Assembly: GCF_006874625.1 (NCBI RefSeq)
Contig: NZ_CP030034.1
Span: 62,001 to 126,000 of the forward strand
Direction: 5' to 3'
Origin: Bdellovibrio sp. NC01
GTDB lineage: Bacteria; Bdellovibrionota; Bdellovibrionia; Bdellovibrionales; Bdellovibrionaceae
DNA length: 64,000 bases
Of the stretch, positions 40,225-51,027 are shown in pieces. The notes under the pieces are model-generated. The model did no database searches. It was not told the DNA's origin and saw only the letters and a program-made list of their open reading frames with translations. The translations under genes and the position numbers were made by a program. The number at the start of each line of letters is the position of its first letter. Position 1 is the first letter of the stretch.

Positions 40225-40617
40225 ATGAAGATACGTTTCGCTGTTGTAGATGATGCCGCCTTTCTTAGAGAACTCATAAAAAATATCGTGAGTTCCGCTG
40301 GTGGCATTTGTGTTGGCGAAGCTGAAAATGGCGATGATGCCATTAAGCTTGCTCAAGCGACTCTGCCCGATCTTGTTTTCCTTGATATGGTGATGCCGTT
40401 GCGAAACGGAATTGAAACTGCGAAGGCATTGAAAGAGCTGATGCCTGAAGTGAAAATCATTGGCTGTTCGACAATCGACAATGAAGCATTGATTGAACAA
40501 GCACATCAAGCGGGATTCGATGCGTATCTGACGAAACCGTTTACTAAAGATCAAATTTTAAAAACAATTTCCAAAGTATTACCGCAACAAGGGGAATCGA
40601 CCCATGGAAGAACTTAA
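40225..40617 (+). CDS. single-domain response regulator (CheY-like)
   Basis: 130 aa, a receiver domain only. Acidic pocket D9-D10, phospho-acceptor D54 in VFLDMVMP, Ser/Thr in GCST (82-83) and Lys104 in LTKPF, all complete. No output domain, so it signals by protein contact, like CheY or a phosphorelay carrier. No kinase is adjacent. It overlaps the next gene by 14 bases, so the two are cotranslated. Confidence 0.92.
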   Translation: MKIRFAVVDDAAFLRELIKNIVSSAGGICVGEAENGDDAIKLAQATLPDLVFLDMVMPLRNGIETAKALKELMPEVKIIGCSTIDNEALIEQAHQAGFDAYLTKPFTKDQILKTISKVLPQQGESTHGRT

Positions 40618-40864
40618 GTTCGTTCTTAAAACCTTTGCCTTTACATGCTTGATGATCGTTTTGATGCAAGTGAAGGTTGGTGGCGCAACTATCGAATCAT
40701 ATTCATTCAGATGGTTGCAACACTCAACAGTGTCGCAGTGGATTCAAAGCGCTGCCGCTGGTGGAGCAATGGCTTTAAGAAATTTGGGTGGTCACGTGAA
40801 AGATGGCGTGGCTAGCACTGTTGACGGATTCCAAGAAGGCGCTCACGAAAAAGCTGTTCGCTAA
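40604..40864 (+). CDS. small membrane protein coupled to the receiver gene
   Basis: 86 aa. One N-terminal hydrophobic helix (FVLKTFAFTCLMIVLMQVKV), then a polar tail with HSTVSQWIQSAAAGGAMALR and an amphipathic C-terminus. No family recognised. Its start lies inside the receiver gene with GGGGAAT upstream. The partnership suggests a membrane anchor or target for the receiver protein; unproved. Confidence 0.65.
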   Translation: MEELKFVLKTFAFTCLMIVLMQVKVGGATIESYSFRWLQHSTVSQWIQSAAAGGAMALRNLGGHVKDGVASTVDGFQEGAHEKAVR

Positions 40865-40885: not shown

Positions 40886-41080
40886 TTATTTGATAGCTTG
40901 ATTTGAAGTCGCTGCAGTAGCAGTTGTCGTCGTACCTTGCGTATTTGATGAAGGAGCTACTGTGTGAGCAAACAAGCTGTTACCTTGTGAACTCATCATG
41001 TGTTTGCATTTTGAACCAGCAAAAGAAGTTGAAGAGATTGTCATTACTGCTGCTGTGATGATGATTGTTGCTGCTTTCAT
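40886..41080 (-). CDS. small exported peptide, paralogue of the 41328 product
   Basis: 64 aa from the ATG at 41080, chosen for AAGGAG six bases upstream. Signal peptide MKAATIIITAAVMTISSTSF then AGSKCKH. The mature 40 residues are Ser/Thr/Ala-rich. KCKH, NSLFAHT and the ending TSNQAIK align with KCAH, GSLFAST and TSNGAIN of the neighbouring protein, so the two are paralogues. One Cys only, so a dimer or an exposed thiol is possible. Secreted or periplasmic; function unknown. Confidence 0.75.
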   Translation of the reverse strand: MKAATIIITAAVMTISSTSFAGSKCKHMMSSQGNSLFAHTVAPSSNTQGTTTTATAATSNQAIK

Positions 41081-41084
41081 TTGG

Positions 41085-41142
41085 TACTCCTTTGTGTTCA
41101 TTAATTCGTCGTACACAAAGAGGTATTGCATCACGCGTGCCA
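41085..41142 (-). promoter_or_regulatory. sigma54-like promoter and inverted repeat before the 40886 gene
   Basis: Minus strand TGGCACGCGTGATGCA (41142-41127) fits TGGCACG-N4-TTGCA except one base. Downstream, TACTCCTTTGTGT (41085-41097) and ACACAAAGAGGTA (41113-41125) are complementary at 11 of 13 positions and include the ribosome site. A CCTTGA-A-TCAAGG palindrome lies at 41174-41186, upstream of the promoter. Confidence 0.55.
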
Positions 41143-41269: not shown

Positions 41270-41309
41270 AAAGGGGAAGGAGAGCGGCTGGGGGGAAACC
41301 ACTCTCCTT
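41270..41309 (-). terminator. terminator-like hairpin after the 41328 gene
   Basis: AAGGAGAG / CTCTCCTT, followed on the minus strand by CCCCTTTTG. Confidence 0.5.
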
Positions 41310-41327
41310 GGGGGCAATAATATTATG

Positions 41328-41522
41328 TTAGTTGATTGCGCCGTTCGAAGTTCCAGGAGCAACTGGGTTTGTTGGACCCGTAGACGAAGTTTTCGCCTTT
41401 CTTACTGGATTCGTCGAAGCGAACAAAGAGCCATTTTCCTTGTGAGCGCATTTAGGATCTGCTGACGCCATAGATGCAGTCGCAAGAACAACAGCGGCCA
41501 TTAGAATTTTCGCAAGTTTCAT
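41328..41522 (-). CDS. small exported peptide, paralogue of the 40886 product
   Basis: 64 aa. Signal peptide MKLAKILMAAVVLATASMAS then ADPKCAH. The mature part of about 42 residues ends GTSNGAIN and shares KC-x-H, SLFA-x-T and TSN-x-AI with the neighbouring product. AAGGAGTC ribosome site is placed in an inverted repeat with GACTCCTT upstream. It lies between the 40886 gene and the hit-like gene on the same strand but has its own terminator on each side, so each small gene seems to be a separate unit. Confidence 0.75.
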   Translation of the reverse strand: MKLAKILMAAVVLATASMASADPKCAHKENGSLFASTNPVRKAKTSSTGPTNPVAPGTSNGAIN

Positions 41523-41526
41523 AGGG

Positions 41527-41605
41527 GACTCCTTTACATGAATTAATCCTTCATAAGGAGTCTATTGCAGCGGTCATGCCATGAAATCTGTATCAGACTG
41601 AGACA
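41527..41605 (-). promoter_or_regulatory. sigma54-like promoter, dyad and SD inverted repeat before the 41328 gene
   Basis: Minus strand TGGCATGACCGCTGCA (41581-41566) keeps the GG/GC spacing. GACTCCTT (41527-41534) and AAGGAGTC (41555-41562) are exact reverse complements, including the ribosome site, with further pairing inside. Upstream is the dyad TGTATCAGACTGAGACA (41589-41605), of the form TGTnTCA-N3-TGAnACA, as expected for an activator site. Confidence 0.55.
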
Positions 41606-41635: not shown

Positions 41636-41670
41636 AATAAAAAGGCCCTGGGTGACCAGAGCCTTTTTCG
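41636..41670 (-). terminator. terminator at the end of the Tad/hit operon
   Basis: AAAAAGGC-C-CTGG-GTGA-CCAG-A-GCCTTTTT hairpin, T-rich on the minus strand (TTTTTATTTT). Confidence 0.85.
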
Positions 41671-41697
41671 TTCTTCCTGTGAAAACTAACTAGACAG

Positions 41698-41979
41698 TTA
41701 TTCTACGCCGTCTTTGCCTGCGCCTGAACCCGAAGAAGGATTCGAGCCAGAACCACTGCGTGGTTGAGCGGCAGTAGGGTCTTGCATACGCATATGTTTA
41801 AGACGAGCCAAACATTCCTTACACTCGCCTACTGAAGCCACCGAAGCACCTTGTGAAGTCATCGCTTCATTTGGGTCTTCGCCTGGATTTACAGTGCGTT
41901 TAGAATCGTCCTGTGCAAATGCAGAGAAAGCTGAACCTAGAGAAATCAAGATCGTTGTAGCGACTAAAATCTTCTTCAT
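41698..41979 (-). CDS. hit-locus-like small exported protein (bd0108 type)
   Basis: 93 aa. Signal peptide MKKILVATTILISLGSAFSA, mature start near QDDSKR. A CKEC motif (GECKECLARLKHMRMQ) and a Gly/Ser/Pro tail (PRSGSGSNPSSGSGAG) follow. Position (next to a YD-repeat exported protein at the end of a Tad cluster), small size and export signal all fit Bd0108 of the B. bacteriovorus hit locus, which is 101 aa and unique to Bdellovibrio. Published work: loss lowers pilus extrusion, and a 42-base in-frame deletion in it accompanies host-independent growth. GAGGTGA ribosome site; 13 bases after the YD-repeat gene, so cotranscribed. Homology rests on context; the sequence was not aligned to HD100. Confidence 0.75.
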   Translation of the reverse strand: MKKILVATTILISLGSAFSAFAQDDSKRTVNPGEDPNEAMTSQGASVASVGECKECLARLKHMRMQDPTAAQPRSGSGSNPSSGSGAGKDGVE

Positions 41980-41992
41980 ACATTCACCTCTC

Positions 41993-43645
41993 TTACAGAT
42001 AAAGCTCAGCTGTAGCTGGAGCGATAATATCTAGCAAGTTATTAAATGTGCTGGCCACTTGCATTGCCACTGAAGGACCTTCTTTACTGTCCACTTTATT
42101 GATGTCGCCATTCTGTTTATAAGATACTTGGATAGTTCCAAGACCTGGGCGAGTTACAACAGCTGGTTTACCATAGCGTTCTTCGTACTCAATCTTAACA
42201 ACCTTTTTCGCTTGATCCGTGATAGTCGCGATACGTCCGCGGTTATCATAAGTCATAGAGATTTTTTGGCCATCAGAGTTTTGTGCGAACGCTAAGTTAC
42301 CTTTTGCATCGTATTTAAACTGCGTTTGTTTCGTCGCAACTTTTGCACCCTTCGCATTGAAGAATGTTGAAGTCACTTCGCTTACTTTTTTGATTTTTGG
42401 ATCATATTCGTAAGCCATGCGCATTGCCGCTGTTGCTTTTACTTTTACAAGACCATCTGGATAGTACTCGTAAGAGATACGATCAGTGTTGCGACGGATG
42501 GAAGTCGGTTTGCCGAATACTTCATGGTAAGTGATATCAGTTACGTTACCGTTTACAGTCGTAGCTACACGTTGCAAATAGAACTGACCATCAGCGCGTT
42601 GTTGATGCCAGAATTCGTATTTGTTATCAGCGATCGTTTCTTTGCCGCAGACTTTCTTAACTGTAGACCAGTAGTGATTTTTAGGATCGTTCGTCGCGAA
42701 TTCGTATTTATACGACTCCACACACTTGTCACGATCCGCAAAACCGATAACCCAGTCATTCTTTTTATCGTATTTCAAAGCGATGAATGTTTTATCTGGC
42801 CAAGAAGCTTTCGTTAAGTTGTGAAGATCATCGTACTCGTACGTATAAGTCTTCAACCAAGCATTCTTTACTGATGCAAGATCGTCCAGGTTTGCGAACT
42901 TGTATTCAGCCATCAAACCATTTGGACCCGTGATCGATTTAACTTTTTTGTTTTGGAAATATTTGAAACCAAGACGACGACCGTTGTTATCTTCGATTTG
43001 CGCGATAACGTCTTTGTCGTAAGTAAATTTCAGGAAGTTACCATTTTTATCGTAGATGTGAGTCAGTTTACCTTGAGTGCTGAAGCGTTGTGCGCTTCCG
43101 TCTGGAAGATTACGAGTGTAGTAAGTCTTATTGAATACGAAGTGTTCAACTTCACGACCGTTAGCGAAGAACTTAGTGCCTTCCTTAACTGGAGCCGTCA
43201 AACCGTATTTCGCAGCTAGTTCAGAACGAGCGTTGTCATCTTCAACCAACTGAGTTTTCAAGCTGTTGATGTAAGCTTCAGTCACGCCGACTTTTTTCTC
43301 GGCTTTCATTTTCGCTACGATGGCATTGATTGTGTTATCAACGTCTTTACGGCTTACTTCGCGAGGAGAGAACGTGACTTCAAGACCGCCACCGCACTCT
43401 TTCACTTTCAAGTTACCTTCAGCCGTGATTTCCATGCTTGTTTCGAAGTCAGAACACCAGCCGAAGCCGAACATACCGTTGAAGAGTGAACGGCTGTTAT
43501 AAGTTCTAACGATTTTCAAATCATAACCACTACCTGGAACATCCATATCGATCCATGTATTGGAATAGTTGGCATTTTTCATGTCGACAAGCGCGTGCGC
43601 CTGCGCAGAAAAAAGAACTGCGATTGCCAAGAGAGTTTTCTTCAT
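41993..43645 (-). CDS. exported YD/RHS-repeat protein (bd0109 type)
   Basis: 550 aa. Signal peptide MKKTLLAIAVLFSAQAHA. Residues about 25-90 match the N-terminal DUF6531-like cap of RHS proteins (MDVPGSGYDLKIVRTYNSRS ... FGFGWCSDFETSM). Then many YD-type repeats: YDKNGNFLKFTYD, YEYDDLHNLTKASWPD, YEYYPDGLVKVKA, YDAKGNLAFAQNSDGQK. No toxin domain and no RHS core-cleavage motif are seen, so it is not a polymorphic toxin. In B. bacteriovorus the equivalent Bd0109 has YD repeats, binds Bd0108 and could not be deleted. Probably regulates or contacts the pilus at the cell wall. 31 bases after the tadB/C gene. Confidence 0.88.
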   Translation of the reverse strand: MKKTLLAIAVLFSAQAHALVDMKNANYSNTWIDMDVPGSGYDLKIVRTYNSRSLFNGMFGFGWCSDFETSMEITAEGNLKVKECGGGLEVTFSPREVSRKDVDNTINAIVAKMKAEKKVGVTEAYINSLKTQLVEDDNARSELAAKYGLTAPVKEGTKFFANGREVEHFVFNKTYYTRNLPDGSAQRFSTQGKLTHIYDKNGNFLKFTYDKDVIAQIEDNNGRRLGFKYFQNKKVKSITGPNGLMAEYKFANLDDLASVKNAWLKTYTYEYDDLHNLTKASWPDKTFIALKYDKKNDWVIGFADRDKCVESYKYEFATNDPKNHYWSTVKKVCGKETIADNKYEFWHQQRADGQFYLQRVATTVNGNVTDITYHEVFGKPTSIRRNTDRISYEYYPDGLVKVKATAAMRMAYEYDPKIKKVSEVTSTFFNAKGAKVATKQTQFKYDAKGNLAFAQNSDGQKISMTYDNRGRIATITDQAKKVVKIEYEERYGKPAVVTRPGLGTIQVSYKQNGDINKVDSKEGPSVAMQVASTFNNLLDIIAPATAELYL

Positions 43646-43676: not shown

Positions 43677-44552
43677 CTACACTTTAATGGTAACAAGCTT
43701 TTTAATTACGACGCCACCGATAATTTGAAGAGCAAGCATCACGAACAACAACACTAGACCAAGGGTTGTAGTAAACATAGGTTTAATGAAGTTCGGATCT
43801 ACCATCATAAATACGCCCATCAAAATAAACGGGATCAAAGTCACGATAATCCCTTGCATCAGGCCTTGCGCGGTAAGGGCCTGAATTTTTTTCTCTACCT
43901 TTTGACGTTCACGGATAACAGTCACGATCGTTGTAAAAGTTTCGGCCAAGTTACCGCCGGTCTCTTTTAAGATGTTGATCGACGTTACGAACATCTGCAC
44001 GTCAGGGCGAGGAATGCGATTGCCTAAGTCATTCAATGCGCTTTCAAAACTATCACCGACTTGCATTTGATAAAGAACTTGCGAGAACTCTTGGCTGATC
44101 GGATTGCCCATGATCTCTACCACGCGCTTCATCGATTCCTGTGGATTCGATCCGGCTTTAATACCGTTCGCCATGATAGTAAGACCGTCCACCATTTGAT
44201 CGGTGAATGTTGAACAACGTTTTTCATAAATCAATTTTACTAACAGCAAAGGCAACTGCCAGCCACCGACAGTCAAGGCCGCGCCAAAGACGGAACCGAT
44301 AAGCACGTTCGGCCAGAATGCCAAGAAGGCAAGGGCGCCCACACCGAAGCTCATCAATAAAATGATGATCGTGATCTTCTTTTCATCAACATCGTTACCC
44401 ATCACACGAAGAAGTTTTACGACTTCTTCTCTTTGTCCAAGACTGCGTGCATGCAACCACGTAATTGCTTTCTCCGCCCACATCAGAACGATGACGAAGA
44501 TGCAAATACCGAATATAGGAATCATGATCCATTCGTTATATAAGAAATGCAT
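43677..44552 (-). CDS. Tad pilus inner-membrane platform protein (TadB/TadC family)
   Basis: 291 aa. Type II secretion F-fold: an N-terminal helix, two helices near 60-100, the cytoplasmic TFTDQMVDGLTIMANGIKAG-NPQESM domain, then two C-terminal membrane segments. Typical Tad systems have both TadB and TadC; only this one was found here. Its ATG follows the tadZA stop by three bases, with the GGGG ribosome site inside the end of tadZA, so they are translationally coupled. Confidence 0.88.
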   Translation of the reverse strand: MHFLYNEWIMIPIFGICIFVIVLMWAEKAITWLHARSLGQREEVVKLLRVMGNDVDEKKITIIILLMSFGVGALAFLAFWPNVLIGSVFGAALTVGGWQLPLLLVKLIYEKRCSTFTDQMVDGLTIMANGIKAGSNPQESMKRVVEIMGNPISQEFSQVLYQMQVGDSFESALNDLGNRIPRPDVQMFVTSINILKETGGNLAETFTTIVTVIRERQKVEKKIQALTAQGLMQGIIVTLIPFILMGVFMMVDPNFIKPMFTTTLGLVLLFVMLALQIIGGVVIKKLVTIKV

Positions 44553-44555
44553 AAT

Positions 44556-46772
44556 CTACCCCGTTTTCTTCGGAGGAATAACTCCAGGCATTTTTGGAGC
44601 CGCGATATTTGGTGCTGCTGGCTTCGCTGCCGGAGCAGGGTTGGCCGCTGCTGGATCGTTCGCGAAAATTTCACGAGGAATCACAACACCTTTATCGCTC
44701 AGTTTTTGGATAAAGCTTGGAATTGTACCGGTTGCTTGGAACACACCTTGGATCTTACGATTTTTATCGTAGCCCGTTTCTTTGAAACGGAAGATCTCTG
44801 CAAGAGTTACGATCTCACCTTGCATGCCCGCAACTTCAGTGATGCTCAAAATTTTACGGCTACCATCTGATAGACGAGAAATCTGAACGATCAAGTTAAC
44901 CGCGCCCGCAATTTGTTCACGGATCGCACGAACTGGAAGATCCATACCAGACATCATACAAAGAGTTTCAAGACGCGCGATACATTCACGAGGACTGTTG
45001 GCGTGAGTTGTCGTCATTGAGCCATCATGACCTGTATTCATCGCTTGCAACATATCAAGAGCGGCGCCGTCACGACACTCACCGACGATGATACGGTCAG
45101 GACGCATACGCAGGGCATTCTTAATCAAGTCACGAATTGTGACAGAGTGAGTTCCTTCCATCGAAGAAGGACGAGTTTCTAAACGCACGACGTGTTCCTG
45201 TTGCAATTGCAACTCGGCCGCGTCCTCGACTGTGATAACACGTTCATTCGAAGGAATGAATGATGACATCATATTCAGTAAGGATGTTTTACCGGAACCA
45301 GTACCACCAGAGATCACGATGTTTAAACCGTTCTCTGCACAGATACGAAGGAAGTCGATCATGTTTTTCGTGATACTTCCGTACTCGATATACTTTTCAG
45401 GTGTGATACCACCTTTTTTAAATTTACGAATAGTCAAAGCAGGTCCGTCGATCGCCAGTGGTTCAATCACGGCGTTCACACGCGAACCGTCTTTTAAACG
45501 CGCATCCACGTAAGGAGTCGAGTCATTGATCTGACGACCCAGTGGAGTCACGATACGTTCGATGATACGGCGTAGGTGATCATTCGAAGTGAAATGCACA
45601 GGGCTTAATTGCACCTTACCGCTTTTCTCGACGAAGATCTTTTTGAAACCATTGACCATGATCTCTGACACGGCAGCATCGGCAAGTAAGTCTTCAAGAG
45701 GACCCAAGCCTAATGCTTCTTCTAAAACTTCTTTGATAATTTTTGAACGCTCTTCACGTGAAAGATCCGGAGCTTCTTTATCGACGATCAAAGTGATTTC
45801 ACGTTTTGTTTTTTCGCGAATCTCTTTTTCTTTATTTTCGTCCTGCTTCGTATCCATCAAAAGCTTTTTCAAATCCACAGTACGAATCAATTCGTTATGC
45901 ACGCGGATTTTAGTCAACGTACGCGGGTCCATGCCTGAAGAACCAGAAACAACCGCAGCGTTACCGCCGCCTTCAGTCGCTGCTGGAGCCACAGGCTTAG
46001 GACGGGCCAATGTTTTAAGTCTTTGTAGGACGCCGCCAGTTAGTTTTCTAGCAACGTCAAAGTAAGCCGCTGTGACTGGAGCTTTTGGAGCTGACAACAC
46101 AAACGGCTGATATTTTTGTAACGCCATCATTGAAGTGGCTTCATCGGCTGGCACGATTCCCAAGAAAGGAAGTTGCAATTGATTTGAAATCGCTTGCGGA
46201 GACAAACCTGTTGGTGAAGCTTTATTGATCACCAATTGGAACATGTCTTTAGGGAATGTCGCTGATAAAAGTTCATTCACCAAGCGTTGCGTTTGAGTGA
46301 CGACAAGAACTTCTGGAGTTGTCACGATCATGATGGCTGTGGCTTCTTGAAGAACAGCCATTTGCGCAGGACCCAAGTCATTACCCACGTCGACCACTAC
46401 GAATTTAAATGCACGACTGAAGAAGTCCATCAACTTGCCCAACATATCAGGCGAAATGTTCATGCTTTCTTCAGGTCCACGCACGGCACCGACATAGCCA
46501 AGGCCAGAAGCATGCATCGTTACAAGAGTATTCATTGGTTGAGAATTTAAAGAACCTTGGAAAGAAGATAGTTCTTTCAAAGTTTTGACTGGCTTAAGCC
46601 CCATGATCACGTTTTGATCGCCGACTGATTTAGAGTCTGCATCGACAAGCAAAACCTGAGTACGTAGCTCTGTCATAAGGGCGCAGGCAAAATTCGCGGC
46701 AAAGACGCTCTTACCGACGCCACCTTTACCACCAACAACAGCGATGAGATTACAGTTAGGATTAATAGCCAA
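44556..46772 (-). CDS. fused TadZ (ParA-like) and TadA (secretion ATPase)
   Basis: 738 aa, TTG start with GGAGG upstream. Residues about 1-265 are a TadZ/CpaE-type ParA-fold ATPase with deviant Walker A KGGVGKS (16-22), [12 protein letters not shown] and a PEVLVV segment; TadZ localises the pilus machine, usually to a pole. After a linker (about 265-300), residues about 300-690 form a TadA/CpaF GspE-type ATPase with GGTGSGKTS (489-497, Lys495), [19 protein letters not shown] and the [19 protein letters not shown] Walker B/His region. A Pro/Ala tail ends the protein. In most Tad clusters these are two genes; here one polypeptide links localisation and powering. Confidence 0.9.
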
Positions 46773-46790
46773 TGCGGACCTCCGTCATCC

Positions 46791-46818
46791 TTATCGGCCA
46801 ACATGTCGAACCTTTTTA
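46791..46818 (-). promoter_or_regulatory. sigma28 (FliA)-like promoter before tadZA
   Basis: Minus strand TAAA (46818-46815), 16-base spacer, GCCGATAA (46798-46791), an exact copy of the E. coli FliA -10 box. Twenty bases before the tadZA TTG start, so the transcript would begin just before the GGAGG ribosome site. Confidence 0.6.
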
Positions 46819-46827
46819 CGAGATGAA

Positions 46828-46878
46828 GGTCCCAATTAAGGGACCCGGCTAAAGTCCTACTCCTGCGCAAGCAGGAGT
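46828..46878. other. two hairpins between the secretin and tadZA genes
   Basis: GGTCCC-AATTAA-GGGACC (46828-46845) and ACTCCTGC-GCAA-GCAGGAGT (46859-46878), both perfect stems, in the 119-base gap. They could stabilise or attenuate the polycistronic mRNA, or mark the end of an upstream transcript before the sigma28-like start. Confidence 0.65.
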
Positions 46879-46891
46879 GCAGACCAGCGTC

Positions 46892-48409
46892 CTAATCGCG
46901 TAGGCGGAACTTCTTCTTGATTTGCTCAGCACCGGCGCTGGCTGAAGTCTTAACGACTGGAGTCACAAACACCACGAACTGGCTTTGATCTTTCGAGAAG
47001 TCCTTCGAAGCGTAAAGACTGATGATTGGGTTCTTCACGTTGTCAGGCATTTTATTATAGTCCGTTGTTGCAGTATTACGGATCAAACCACCGACTGCAG
47101 CACTTTGACGGTCACGCACGATCACTGACGAATTCATTTCATTCGAGCTTGTGATTGGCGCACCACCAGAACGACCCACCATGCTTGTCACTTTGAATGA
47201 CAGATCCATGTGCACGCTTCCTGATTTTTCACCAAGAAGCATTGGTGTGATCGTACTTACGATACCAACTTCCGCAAACGCAGTACCTTGAACGTTATCT
47301 TTACCGATAACCGCGTAAGGTTGGTTGGTTACCTGTTTGATTTCACCTTTTTTACCGTCTTCAACAATCAAGCTAGTACTTTCAAGTACGCGAGCATGAC
47401 CGTGTTGTTTCGCCCAGTTTAATTTCGGCAACAAGTTTGAAACTGTGCCTGTGATAGAACTGACGATACCGCCTGGAGTGCTGCCACCACCAGTCACAGT
47501 CAATTGCGAGTTGTCACCCAATTCAGGAGTGAATTGGAATTTGAACGCCTTCGAGTAGTTTTTATTCAACTCAACGTAATGCACGACAAGTTGAATCATC
47601 TTAGAAGGTGGTTTTGGTGCAGCCTCTTTGACTTGGATCAAGTTAATGACACCGTCATTGGCAGGCTTACGCTTTTTGATCACACCTTTTTCTTCGGCAG
47701 CTTCGATCACGATATCTGGTAGATATGTTTTCGCGATGATCTCTGCACGAACTTTTTCATCGTCACTGTTCGCCCAACCTTGAAGAATGATTTTGTCATT
47801 CACGGCGCGAACTTCGATTTCTGGATTGTTGATATCGCGCGTAATGAACTCTGCGATTTTCTTTTGTGCTAATGGGCTGAGTGTCACAAGCGATGAAGCT
47901 TGATCGCCGAACTGCTGAACGACGTTGTAGATACGAGCAAGATCTTTCGGAAGAAGGATCTGACCATCGACGACAACTTTATTATTTACGATCTTGATGT
48001 TGATACCTTCGATATCACCAAGAAGTGCACGCATTTCGCGAACGACTTTATCAAGCTTACTTTTCTTAACGTCAATACGGTATTCGGCAACGATCTTGCC
48101 GTTTTTCTTATCGTGAATTGTTAGTGTCGCAAAACCTTCCGCTTTAGGGGCGAAGCGGATAACGTTCAAGTCTTTAGCGAAAGAGGCTGTTACGATACGG
48201 CGGAAATCACCTTTGAATTCTACGCCTTCAGGAATAGGAGGAAGTTTTTCGTCGTGTTCGATGCCTAAAGTCAGGCTGACGAACTTACGCGAGCGATAAG
48301 CGCCACTATCTTCAACCGATACAGATGGATCGGCAGACAGATCGTCTTCTGCGCGAACGTATCCACTCATGCTTAATAGTAAGCTTAGAGTGAGCAGTTG
48401 ATATTTCAT
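46892..48409 (-). CDS. cpaC: Tad pilus secretin (RcpA/CpaC)
   Basis: 505 aa. Signal peptide MKYQLLTLSLLLSMSGYVRA. N-terminal BON-like/N-domain region (about 40-280, with GINIKIVNNKVVVDGQILL) followed by the secretin core from about 285: IQLVVHYVELNKNYSKAFKF, ARVLESTSLIVEDGKKGEIK, MLLGEKSGSVHMDLSFKVTS and RDRQSAAVGGLIRN. It forms the outer-membrane channel through which the Flp fibre leaves. TAAGGGG upstream of the ATG. Confidence 0.93.
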   Translation of the reverse strand: MKYQLLTLSLLLSMSGYVRAEDDLSADPSVSVEDSGAYRSRKFVSLTLGIEHDEKLPPIPEGVEFKGDFRRIVTASFAKDLNVIRFAPKAEGFATLTIHDKKNGKIVAEYRIDVKKSKLDKVVREMRALLGDIEGINIKIVNNKVVVDGQILLPKDLARIYNVVQQFGDQASSLVTLSPLAQKKIAEFITRDINNPEIEVRAVNDKIILQGWANSDDEKVRAEIIAKTYLPDIVIEAAEEKGVIKKRKPANDGVINLIQVKEAAPKPPSKMIQLVVHYVELNKNYSKAFKFQFTPELGDNSQLTVTGGGSTPGGIVSSITGTVSNLLPKLNWAKQHGHARVLESTSLIVEDGKKGEIKQVTNQPYAVIGKDNVQGTAFAEVGIVSTITPMLLGEKSGSVHMDLSFKVTSMVGRSGGAPITSSNEMNSSVIVRDRQSAAVGGLIRNTATTDYNKMPDNVKNPIISLYASKDFSKDQSQFVVFVTPVVKTSASAGAEQIKKKFRLRD

Positions 48410-48454
48410 AATTCCCCCTTAACTAACAATTCCCCTTAACAAAACCCGAACGAA

Positions 48455-49384
48455 CTACAATGTATGGAAGCCACCAGGTCGCTGTTGCGGAGGTGCCGTA
48501 CGTTGTTGCATAGGCGGAGCAATACTTGGGCGAGCCGGCATTTGCTGCTGTGGAAGGATCGTCGGTGGCGCTACTGACGCCGGCGCTGGTCCATCCAAAG
48601 AAACAACAGGCTTACCCGCTACTGAATCAGAAGTAGAGCTTGGCATACGCGGTGGAATTGTTCTGTCGCTTGGATTTCTTAAAGCGAAGAACAAGTTACC
48701 CGGTGCCGTTGACAAGATATAAAATAAATCTTGTGCTTCTTTCGGAGTCGCCTCAATCGTGATCGTCGTATATTTCGTGTCACCAGTTAAAGCGATCTGA
48801 CTTAAGTTTTTACCTGAAGAGTCCAATTCGAACATACGTGGAATGTTATTTACAACACTCACGCCTGTCGCTAGGACAACAACGTCATTCATCATAGTGA
48901 AGACTTCACGACGTTGATTCACACCTTTACCGTTATCAACTGCTGCATAGATATCCACGCGGTCACCCGGACGGATTAGCTTTGCAACCGCACGGACTTC
49001 ATCCACTGGAATCGTTACCGCACGTTTACTTGGAGCCACTTGCAACGAGATCCCTGTGTCAGGACCCGGTGTTAATAAGTTATTTTTCAAAACCATCTGA
49101 CCTTTACGAATAGGAACCGCAGCCACGTTACCGATGATTTCATCAGGAACTGTGATCGCATCTGGCTGAATGAAGTCAGCAGGAAGTTCTTTTGTTTCTA
49201 CCATCGTATCGTAGATCGTTTGCATTTCAGCGATATCGTCTTTGGCGATAACTACACGTTTCGTTGAACCGAAGCGTTTGTCGTACTCTGCTTTTTTCTC
49301 TTGAGAATAGCTGTACAGAAGGAATGTCGCGAAGACTCCTGCGCCAATCGATAACCATAGGTTTCTAGTATCATTCGGTCCCAT
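48455..49384 (-). CDS. cpaB: Tad pilus assembly protein (CpaB/RcpC)
   Basis: 309 aa from the ATG at 49384, chosen for TTAGGAG just upstream; the longer frame would overlap the preceding gene. One N-terminal membrane helix (NLWLSIGAGVFATFLLYSYS), then a SAF/AFP-type domain: VVIAKDDIAEMQTIYDTMV, VPIRKGQMVLKNNLL, KRAVTIPVDEVRAVAKLIRPGDRVDIYA with the last residues typical of RcpC. A Pro/Gln-rich tail follows. It supports the secretin in the periplasm, probably by binding peptidoglycan. Confidence 0.92.
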   Translation of the reverse strand: MGPNDTRNLWLSIGAGVFATFLLYSYSQEKKAEYDKRFGSTKRVVIAKDDIAEMQTIYDTMVETKELPADFIQPDAITVPDEIIGNVAAVPIRKGQMVLKNNLLTPGPDTGISLQVAPSKRAVTIPVDEVRAVAKLIRPGDRVDIYAAVDNGKGVNQRREVFTMMNDVVVLATGVSVVNNIPRMFELDSSGKNLSQIALTGDTKYTTITIEATPKEAQDLFYILSTAPGNLFFALRNPSDRTIPPRMPSSTSDSVAGKPVVSLDGPAPASVAPPTILPQQQMPARPSIAPPMQQRTAPPQQRPGGFHTL

Positions 49385-49391
49385 AGCGCTC

Positions 49392-49907
49392 CTAAGTTCC
49401 ACAAGCTGCATTCAAGCAGATGCCGTATGAAGTTTTAATCCAGATGGGGTTCACGCTAACATTCTCATTACGAGGGTTGCTGCAATCTTTACCTTTAACG
49501 TCGTAGTCACACACAGTACTGACTTGCTTTTGATGGAAGTCTTTACTTTTCATATCAACTTCAGGACGATTACCGAAATCGAAGAAGTCGATCTTACGAG
49601 TTGAAGCGGCCCATTTCGCTTCACCACCAGATTCGTCACGTGTACCGTGTACGCGCATTTTATAATCGTTGTAGTGAAGATTGCCGCTATCAGTTTTACG
49701 GAAATAGGTAAGGTTCGCTCGGTGAGAGAAACTTCCCATCGCATAGTTTCGAGCAGACATTGAATTCATGATGCCGGTGTGAATGGCGCCAAAGAAACCC
49801 AATGCGAAGTTAATAAATAAAACGACAACAACCATGACGGGAATCATCTCGAACATGGCCATACCTTTTTCATTATTTAATCTGGAAGATTTTTTAGACT
49901 TTAACAT
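49392..49907 (-). CDS. TadE-like minor pilin
   Basis: 171 aa. Class III prepilin leader MLKSKKSSRLNNEKG cleaved after Gly15, giving Met1 and the conserved Glu at position +5 (MAMFE). The hydrophobic helix MIPVMVVVVLFINFALGFFG follows. The C-terminal 130 residues are polar with four Cys (STVCDYD, DCSN, GICLNAAC). Typical of TadE/TadF pseudopilins that initiate or modulate pilus assembly. Its start overlaps the stop of the upstream gene by seven bases. Confidence 0.85.
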   Translation of the reverse strand: MLKSKKSSRLNNEKGMAMFEMIPVMVVVVLFINFALGFFGAIHTGIMNSMSARNYAMGSFSHRANLTYFRKTDSGNLHYNDYKMRVHGTRDESGGEAKWAASTRKIDFFDFGNRPEVDMKSKDFHQKQVSTVCDYDVKGKDCSNPRNENVSVNPIWIKTSYGICLNAACGT

Positions 49908-50581
49908 CCGTTATCCTCCAGTGGTACGTATTTGCTGTTGCCAGAGCTTCCCAAAGTTTTATAACGAGAAGACAGATTTAGAATCGCTTCGTTACGTGCT
50001 TTCATTTGCACCAGACATTCTTGTTGGGAAGGTTCACGAATCATGAACGCTGTAAGATAGGATTTGAATCCAGAATCGGAATCAGATGCCGTCGTACCCA
50101 AGAATGCGATTTTTAAATTCAGAATGCGCGGAACGAATGCAACACGAACACCAGTGATCGGTACCGTCGCTGCTTCAACAGCCGCCTTCGGAATGGAGTA
50201 GATGTTAGAAAAATCTTCTCCGTTATAACCGCCCTTAATATCGATCTTCGGAGCAGAGCCATCAGTTTCTGCACCAAGCAGGAACCAACTACCGCCGCCT
50301 TTTTTCGCGAATAGATCTTGAAGAACAGGTTTGCTTAATAGTTCGTTGAATTTGTCAGTACCCATTTTGGCTTGCATCGCAGGATCCACGTGTGCAGCCG
50401 CGTGAGCACGCGAAGCAGAGAAGGCAATGTATTGGCCAACTTCTGCCATTGACAATGTGAACGTCAAAGAGAACAAAACAATGCAAAGCCCCGCACACAA
50501 CGTGAGCGAAAAAATGAAATCTGCCGAGATCATACCTCGGGAGTTTCCAATTATGATTTTGCTTGCCGCATTCCTTTTCAC
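49901..50581 (-). CDS. TadE/TadF-like pseudopilin with Asp at +5
   Basis: 226 aa, GTG start with AAGGGTGA upstream. Prepilin-like leader ends SRG (Gly16), then MISAD: the usual Glu at +5 is Asp. Helix FIFSLTLCAGLCIVLFSLTF follows, then a large soluble domain (AFSASRAHAAAHVDPAMQAK is typical of TadE-like proteins). Asp in place of Glu is known in some minor pilins and could affect methylation or assembly order. Overlaps the next gene by seven bases. Confidence 0.8.
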   Translation of the reverse strand: MKRNAASKIIIGNSRGMISADFIFSLTLCAGLCIVLFSLTFTLSMAEVGQYIAFSASRAHAAAHVDPAMQAKMGTDKFNELLSKPVLQDLFAKKGGGSWFLLGAETDGSAPKIDIKGGYNGEDFSNIYSIPKAAVEAATVPITGVRVAFVPRILNLKIAFLGTTASDSDSGFKSYLTAFMIREPSQQECLVQMKARNEAILNLSSRYKTLGSSGNSKYVPLEDNGC

Positions 50582-50594
50582 AACTTCACCCTTA

Positions 50595-50843
50595 CTAAGG
50601 TTTCAAAGACACACTTCGTTGACTTTGATTCGGGTGGTTCTTGCATGCAGTAGCGGGTGAACCCCAGCTTCCGCATTCAAGCATCCCCGAAACTTCGGCC
50701 CAAGGACGTTCGATCATGTTCGCAAGGTATTTGCCCTCGCGAAGAGTCTTCATGCTGGCGATGAATATCGACACCATGACGATCATGAGCAGAACGCCTT
50801 CGATTACGAATTGACCGCGTTGGTTCCTAACTGTGCGTAACAT
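50595..50843 (-). CDS. TadE-like minor pilin (short)
   Basis: 82 aa from the ATG at 50843, just after the stop of the preceding small gene, with GGGGGA upstream. Class III leader MLRTVRNQRG then QFVIE: Glu at +5 is present. Hydrophobic helix GVLLMIVMVSIFIASM, then a short tail with two Cys (LECGSWG and TACKN). A likely minor pilin. Confidence 0.78.
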   Translation of the reverse strand: MLRTVRNQRGQFVIEGVLLMIVMVSIFIASMKTLREGKYLANMIERPWAEVSGMLECGSWGSPATACKNHPNQSQRSVSLKP

Positions 50844-50844
50844 G

Positions 50845-51027
50845 TTATTCCCCCCACTGTTGAACTTTGCCTTTGGTTTGGAAACCGCCGCCTGTCTCAA
50901 GTTGCATTTCGACTCTGGCACCCATGCGGGGACCAGATTCTTTAAATGCTTTCGCTGGAGCTGAAATGAAAACTTTCAGCCCAATGAAGAACACTGCGAA
51001 AAGCAACAAGACATATTCAACTGTCAT
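50845..51027 (-). CDS. pilin-like protein without leader peptide
   Basis: 60 aa. Starts directly MTVEYVLLLFAVFFIGLKVF: the EY pair and helix of a Flp pilin are present at residues 4-5, but the usual Lys-rich leader and Gly cleavage site are absent, and an in-frame stop (TAG) lies three codons before the ATG. So it cannot be a normal prepilin-peptidase substrate unless translation starts differently. It may be a membrane-integrated accessory subunit. Sits between flp and the minor pilins, one base before the next ATG. Confidence 0.7.
   Translation of the reverse strand: MTVEYVLLLFAVFFIGLKVFISAPAKAFKESGPRMGARVEMQLETGGGFQTKGKVQQWGE

Follow-up and report, generated by a model that had tools for sequence, protein, structure and literature searches.

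The hit locus of Bdellovibrio sp. NC01: an exported YD/Rhs-repeat protein, its small exported neighbours, and a published small RNA that is most likely the mRNA of one of them

It has long been asked how Bdellovibrio changes from predatory to prey-independent growth and back, and the published model draws heavily on a small RNA of the host-interaction (hit) locus. In strain HD100 mutations in bd0108 give prey-independent growth and altered piliation (PMC3818213, PMC4267844), and a small non-coding RNA at 96455-96716, which was detected by RNA-seq and RT-PCR and was up in all bd0108 mutants tested, was built into a signalling model (PMC3818213). The corresponding DNA of Bdellovibrio sp. NC01 raises the question of which of these elements a related strain has kept, and what the transcript is. 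The window, meaning the whole stretch of DNA that was analysed, comprises 64,000 nucleotides of contig NZ_CP030034.1.

The region 41698-43645 is the hit locus of NC01, orthologous to the known locus, as the original prediction had supposed for a related strain. That prediction described an exported 550-aa YD/RHS-repeat ORF followed 13 bases later by an exported 93-aa ORF, the two being last in a Tad operon, and each of these elements is in place: the ORFs lie at 41993-43645 and 41698-41979 on the minus strand, the gap is 41980-41992, and T2SSF, CpaE/TadA, secretin and CpaB/TadE-like genes are found upstream on the same strand. By orthology the YD protein is Bd0109 and the small protein is Bd0108, and the pair closes the Tad operon.

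43677..50921, minus strand: Tad pilus genes upstream (T2SSF, CpaE-TadA ATPase, secretin, CpaB, TadE-like), as follows
up to ~50.9 kb, minus strand: CpaB/TadE-like genes
46892-48409, minus strand: secretin
44556-46772, minus strand: CpaE/TadA fusion ATPase
43677-44552, minus strand: TadB/TadC-type T2SSF protein
41993..43645, minus strand: Bd0109 orthologue, exported 550-aa YD/Rhs protein (PF05593, PF20148)
41698..41979, minus strand: Bd0108 orthologue, exported 93-aa protein with VNPGEDPNEA, CKEC and a Gly/Ser-rich tail (NF053838.1; alignment of 23 genomes)

The YD protein is a full-length orthologue (85% identical to HD100 over 549 aa) with YD repeats and linkage to the Tad genes. The small protein is exported, has a CxxC and the conserved NPGEDPNEA segment, lies directly behind bd0109 and scores 125.1 bits against the NCBIfam model NF053838.1 hit_Bd0108, which has a cut-off of 40. 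Because dN/dS values against the nearest relative are low (0.02 for the YD protein, 0.13 for the small one), this is not a chance pair of ORFs. There is no better pair elsewhere in the NC01 genome, in which the Bd0108 orthologue has no second copy and a search for a second YD gene gave only weak partial matches, pieces of 1254-1306-aa ORFs. The literature facts quoted with the prediction are correct, and the hit-locus primers of PMC3818213 match HD100 (G003) at the expected places. The 738-aa protein encoded at 44556-46772 (minus strand) consists of a CpaE/ParA-like domain fused to a TadA ATPase.

The hit loci of HD100 and NC01 have in common the gene order, spacing, Tad linkage and signal peptides, the VNPGEDPNEA and CxEC motifs and the curated equivalog model. 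NC01 differs in its small protein (93 instead of 101 aa, and 44% identical over residues 1-88, E 2.9e-12), in an extra microprotein gene downstream (ORF3, below) and in being without a 42-bp-spaced direct repeat. In HD100 Bd0108 is disordered and binds Bd0109, it has a C56-C59 disulphide, and NMR data suggest residues 24-66 as the Bd0109-binding part, with conservation strongest at 32-40 (PMC4267844). The HD100 gene contains a 10-bp direct repeat, CAAAGGCTCC, whose copies are spaced by 42 bp, in keeping with the common 42-bp deletion; in the NC01 bd0108 gene no direct repeats of at least 8 bp were found, and since the repeat is absent this class of deletion is not expected there. In the deposited genome of strain W (L114, G004) bd0108 is frameshifted in the region ~90770-91080, with the CPEC part intact in the other frame, which explains the reported missing C-terminus. 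This break resembles those of laboratory host-independent mutants.

The YD protein has a signal peptide and matches RHS_repeat (PF05593, 3.8e-12) and DUF6531 (PF20148, 6.7e-9). Its AlphaFold2 model (pLDDT 87.5, pTM 0.63) ends in a C-terminal helix, and combines YD repeats with a beta-shell fold whose structural matches are Rhs cores and teneurin shells. The best solved match is 8qjb, an Rhs core, with Z 24.4 and a large rmsd for 375 residues aligned within 18-524; for Tse5 the match lies within 19-392, where 283 residues align at 3.1 A with Z 22.6. The predicted fold of residues ~18-524 is common to Bd0109, the T6SS Rhs cores 8qjb/8uy4 and the teneurins (Z up to 24), whereas Bd0109 has about half their length, its own signal peptide and no toxin or autoprotease part. 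The model predicts Bd0109 to be a half-size Rhs shell, approximately half of a canonical one, with a conserved C-terminal helix. Residues 20-63 were proposed to form an N-terminal pilin-like fold (PMC3818213); in the full-length model they align as part of the Rhs shell and they match DUF6531, which argues against that proposal.

An Rhs fold followed by a small gene resembles the layout of Rhs toxins and their immunity genes, and the pair might accordingly be an ordinary Rhs protein accompanied by a small protein for immunity, or by an antitoxin, rather than a lifestyle switch. We regard this as extremely improbable, given that no variable toxin domain stands behind the repeats, where the chain ends in a strongly conserved helix, that both products are exported, that the YD protein, unlike polymorphic toxins, is conserved over its whole length throughout the class (within the family 48-95%), and that the small protein scores above the cut-off of the curated hit_Bd0108 model.

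Two more small exported ORFs, at 41328-41522 and 40886-41080, are found downstream, outside the span of the original prediction.

41642..41672, minus strand: intrinsic-terminator-like hairpin after bd0108 (12-bp stem, about -18 kcal/mol), then TTTTTATTTT
41590..41604, minus strand: degenerate copy of the palindrome GTCTCA-N3-TGAGAC, immediately ahead of the -24 element of ORF2
41565..41581, minus strand: sigma-54-type -24/-12 promoter of ORF2, TGGCATGACCGCTGCAA, its position conserved in the genus and beyond
41328..41522, minus strand: ORF2, 64-aa exported microprotein with signal peptide, invariant Cys and AAAGGAG ribosome site, NC01 counterpart of the HD100 'sRNA'
41277..41309, minus strand: terminator-like hairpin after ORF2, AAGGAGAGTGG...CCGCTCTCCTT then TTCCCCTTTT
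41126..41142, minus strand: sigma-54-type promoter of ORF3, TGGCACGCGTGATGCAA
40886..41080, minus strand: ORF3, 64-aa exported paralogue of ORF2, 38% identical to it

ORF2 lies ~170 bp downstream of bd0108, and because terminator-like hairpins follow both genes it looks like a unit of its own, apart from the Tad operon. As far as the sequence goes, NC01 has after bd0108 a separate unit consisting of a sigma-54-type promoter, a small exported-protein gene and a terminator-like hairpin, plus a second copy. An alternative 82-aa reading of ORF3 starts inside the promoter region, and the ORF3 architecture is also present in genomes G013, G015, G017, G018, G022 and G025.

The HD100 'sRNA' and the NC01 ORF2 unit occupy the same place, as separate units of similar length, and the HD100 interval holds, at 96483-96683 on the minus strand, an ORF of 66 aa that has a signal peptide and AAAAAAGGAG ahead of its ATG. 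The strand of the sRNA is not stated in the text of PMC3818213. From its position the 66-aa ORF is probably the automatically annotated RefSeq gene BD_RS00505, which has been named at this place (PMC5941755). In the papers examined no link between BD_RS00505 and the hit-locus sRNA was found, no translation or mass-spectrometry data for ORF2 came to light, and the main text of the NC01 laboratory-evolution paper does not mention the hit locus.

At the ORF2 position, ~470-530 nt past the bd0109 stop, all 24 Bdellovibrio genomes have an ORF for an exported protein of 57-69 aa, each with the conserved ribosome site and the conserved signal peptide, and an ORF of this type occurs in 47 of the 58 family genomes with enough sequence (mean 0.17 in dinucleotide shuffles); these and all other genome counts across relatives given here are not corrected for phylogeny. 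Among five close genome pairs the 130 substitutions in ORF2 fall 25/14/91 on codon positions 1/2/3 (p ~1.5e-17) and dN/dS is 0-0.25, with similar values for bd0108 in the same pairs. Moreover, indels within ORF2 in close pairs are multiples of 3, whereas many of the flanking ones are not, and all 24 aligned ORF2/ORF3 proteins have a cysteine right behind the predicted cleavage site. Judged by these patterns of substitution ORF2 is under purifying selection as a protein, and for this reason the published hit-locus ncRNA is most likely the mRNA of a small exported protein. Unlike the publication, we would read the HD100 interval as an mRNA for the 66-aa exported protein with a sigma-54-type promoter.

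The published reading, in which the transcript is a genuine regulatory non-coding RNA and the ORF is incidental, has in its favour the RNA-seq and RT-PCR detection and the sRNA signalling proposed with it (PMC3818213), and such an RNA could belong to a family as yet undescribed in Rfam. We nevertheless find it very unlikely, since a non-coding RNA should lack a conserved coding frame and here the third-position excess, the low dN/dS, the frame-keeping indels and the universal ribosome site and signal peptide in the genus all speak for one; in addition, RNAalifold gave no consensus RNA pairs in the ORF2 region and an Rfam scan of 30-60 kb gave no relevant family above the gathering score. The merRNA, which was considered as the hit-locus RNA and rejected, is unrelated and is located elsewhere in HD100 (1,073,741-1,074,185). 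Dual-function RNAs exist in other bacteria, and a microprotein mRNA that also acts by base pairing could use the predicted 5' leader of ~50 nt, which would be free for pairing; this leader is, however, poorly conserved in the genus except for the ribosome site, and we consider a dual function unlikely. The reading as an mRNA is the one retained. As to the protein itself, Pfam and NCBIfam have no family for ORF2 or ORF3, and AlphaFold2 gave no confident structure for ORF2, only the signal helix. One control in the ORF2 scan looked like a failure, as antisense matches appeared in 24 genomes, but these are one genuine convergent gene for an 86-aa Bd0103-like protein. This membrane protein (M[ED]E[LF]KF...LMQVK; 40604-40864, plus strand) is encoded beside the hit locus and is kept across the family.

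A GG/GC -24/-12 site stands 32-70 nt ahead of the start in 52 of 52 family ORF2/ORF3 genes. In 39 of them it is strong, with 10 or more of the 12 positions matched; shuffles lead one to expect 0.13, and the region upstream of bd0108, which served as control, has a single strong site. These sites combine the GG and GC elements with the -24/-12 spacing and a conserved position. HD100 has one exact copy of the pattern TGGCAYRNNNNNTGCWA, at the ORF2-type gene, and NC01 has four, two of them at this locus; rpoN is present. We infer that ORF2 would be under sigma-54 control, with a corresponding activator.

Within the class Bd0109 is present in 138 of 144 genomes and in 68 of 69 genera, and a small ORF lies directly behind its gene in 58 of the 61 family genomes examined. 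Outside the genus the 35 ORFs at the Bd0108 position carry DPN in 12 cases and CxxC in 18 (1.0 and 1.95, respectively, expected in shuffles). A Gly third from the end is found in 30 of 58 Bd0108-position proteins (ORF1) and 20 of 47 ORF2 proteins, and the DPN motif is in none of the 47 family ORF2 proteins, so that it is not common to Bd0108 and ORF2 there. Any paralogy between Bd0108 and ORF2 would have to be judged from layout and tail, because the middle regions are not alignable. In 20 representatives of other families a second small exported ORF is usually present, often with a sigma-54-type site. The trio of Bd0109, a Bd0108-like protein and a microprotein thus recurs throughout the family and in most of the sampled outgroup families, B. 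exovorus included. The two small signal-peptide neighbours described beside the Bd0109 homologue of Bacteriovorax marinus (PMC4267844) fit this recurrence.

In B. exovorus A11Q_2207/2208 were proposed from synteny as the hit equivalent, and the ORF behind A11Q_2375 was not mentioned (PMC4267844). In strain JSS (G043) A11Q_2375 is the Tad-linked Bd0109, followed 10 bp behind by an ORF for a 124-aa exported protein with GEDPN and then by a sigma-54 microprotein gene, and for this reason the Tad-linked locus is the better equivalent. This genome has a second Bd0109 paralogue at 2249834-2251489, 38% identical and outside the Tad locus, with its own 85-aa CxxC-type partner, and extra YD proteins are also encoded in genomes G011, G012, G006 and G034. 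For strain SKB1291214 a '174-bp insertion' and a 'missing Bd0108' were reported (PMC5941755); we infer from length and place that these may be a third small ORF and a divergent Bd0108, as in the related genomes G013 and G017 (KM01).

We hypothesize that Bd0109 forms a small Rhs-type shell next to the pilus machinery, located in the periplasm or at the wall, and that Bd0108-type disordered proteins dock on it through their conserved (E/D)DPN segment, which lies in the part of HD100 Bd0108 to which NMR traced the binding. The microprotein with the sigma-54-type promoter would be a second disordered exported protein of Bd0108-like layout, with one cysteine and the G-x-R/K/N tail shared with Bd0108, and may act on the same Bd0109 shell or complex, or on the pilus. 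The rise of its transcript in bd0108 mutants could then be a readout of pilus state, with RpoN and an activator passing the signal on, and the transcript would not be an RNA regulator that switches replication on and off; the PilS/PilR control of sigma-54-dependent pilin genes in other bacteria offers an analogy for the RpoN step. As a whole, this explanation (an NC01 hit locus, the 'ncRNA' as mRNA, an Rhs shell with exported disordered partners, and a sigma-54 output) seems to us quite probable. More tentatively, and with a little less than even confidence, we suggest that the hit locus is a module found through much of the class Bdellovibrionia, made of the Rhs half-shell Bd0109, a rapidly evolving disordered exported Bd0108-type partner and a sigma-54-driven exported microprotein, and that the signal linking pilus state to prey-free growth is carried or reported by this microprotein instead of a regulatory RNA.

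Instead of regulators, the small genes 1, 2 and 3 might encode minor components of the Tad pilus or of its tip, given that throughout the family they are found with the Tad operon and that other families have the trio as well. We think this improbable, because Bd0108 is disordered and binds Bd0109 (PMC4267844), its deletion reduced type IVa and not Tad pili (PMC3818213), and the structure predicted for ORF2 is a signal helix and nothing more. The NC01 hit locus is as such an orthologue of a known one, and what goes beyond this is the probable reading of the 'sRNA' as a microprotein mRNA with a sigma-54-type promoter. If the transcript is such an mRNA, protein partners of a periplasmic Rhs shell take the place of RNA signalling in the model of the switch, and attention turns to RpoN and its activator. 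The divergent but position-conserved partners across the family would also weaken the idea that Bd0108 is confined to few strains.

For the Tad operon a promoter that responds to FliA has been reported (PMC5430801). The palindrome GTCTCA-N3-TGAGAC upstream of ORF2 was considered as the site of the sigma-54 activator and rejected, as -24/-12 sites are missing near most of its other copies in the genomes. It has the look of an operator of wider use, belonging to an undescribed regulon: it has 25 sites in G003 (HD100), 14 in G000 and 21 in G009, where the reversed control pattern never occurs, and many copies precede genes for exported proteins.
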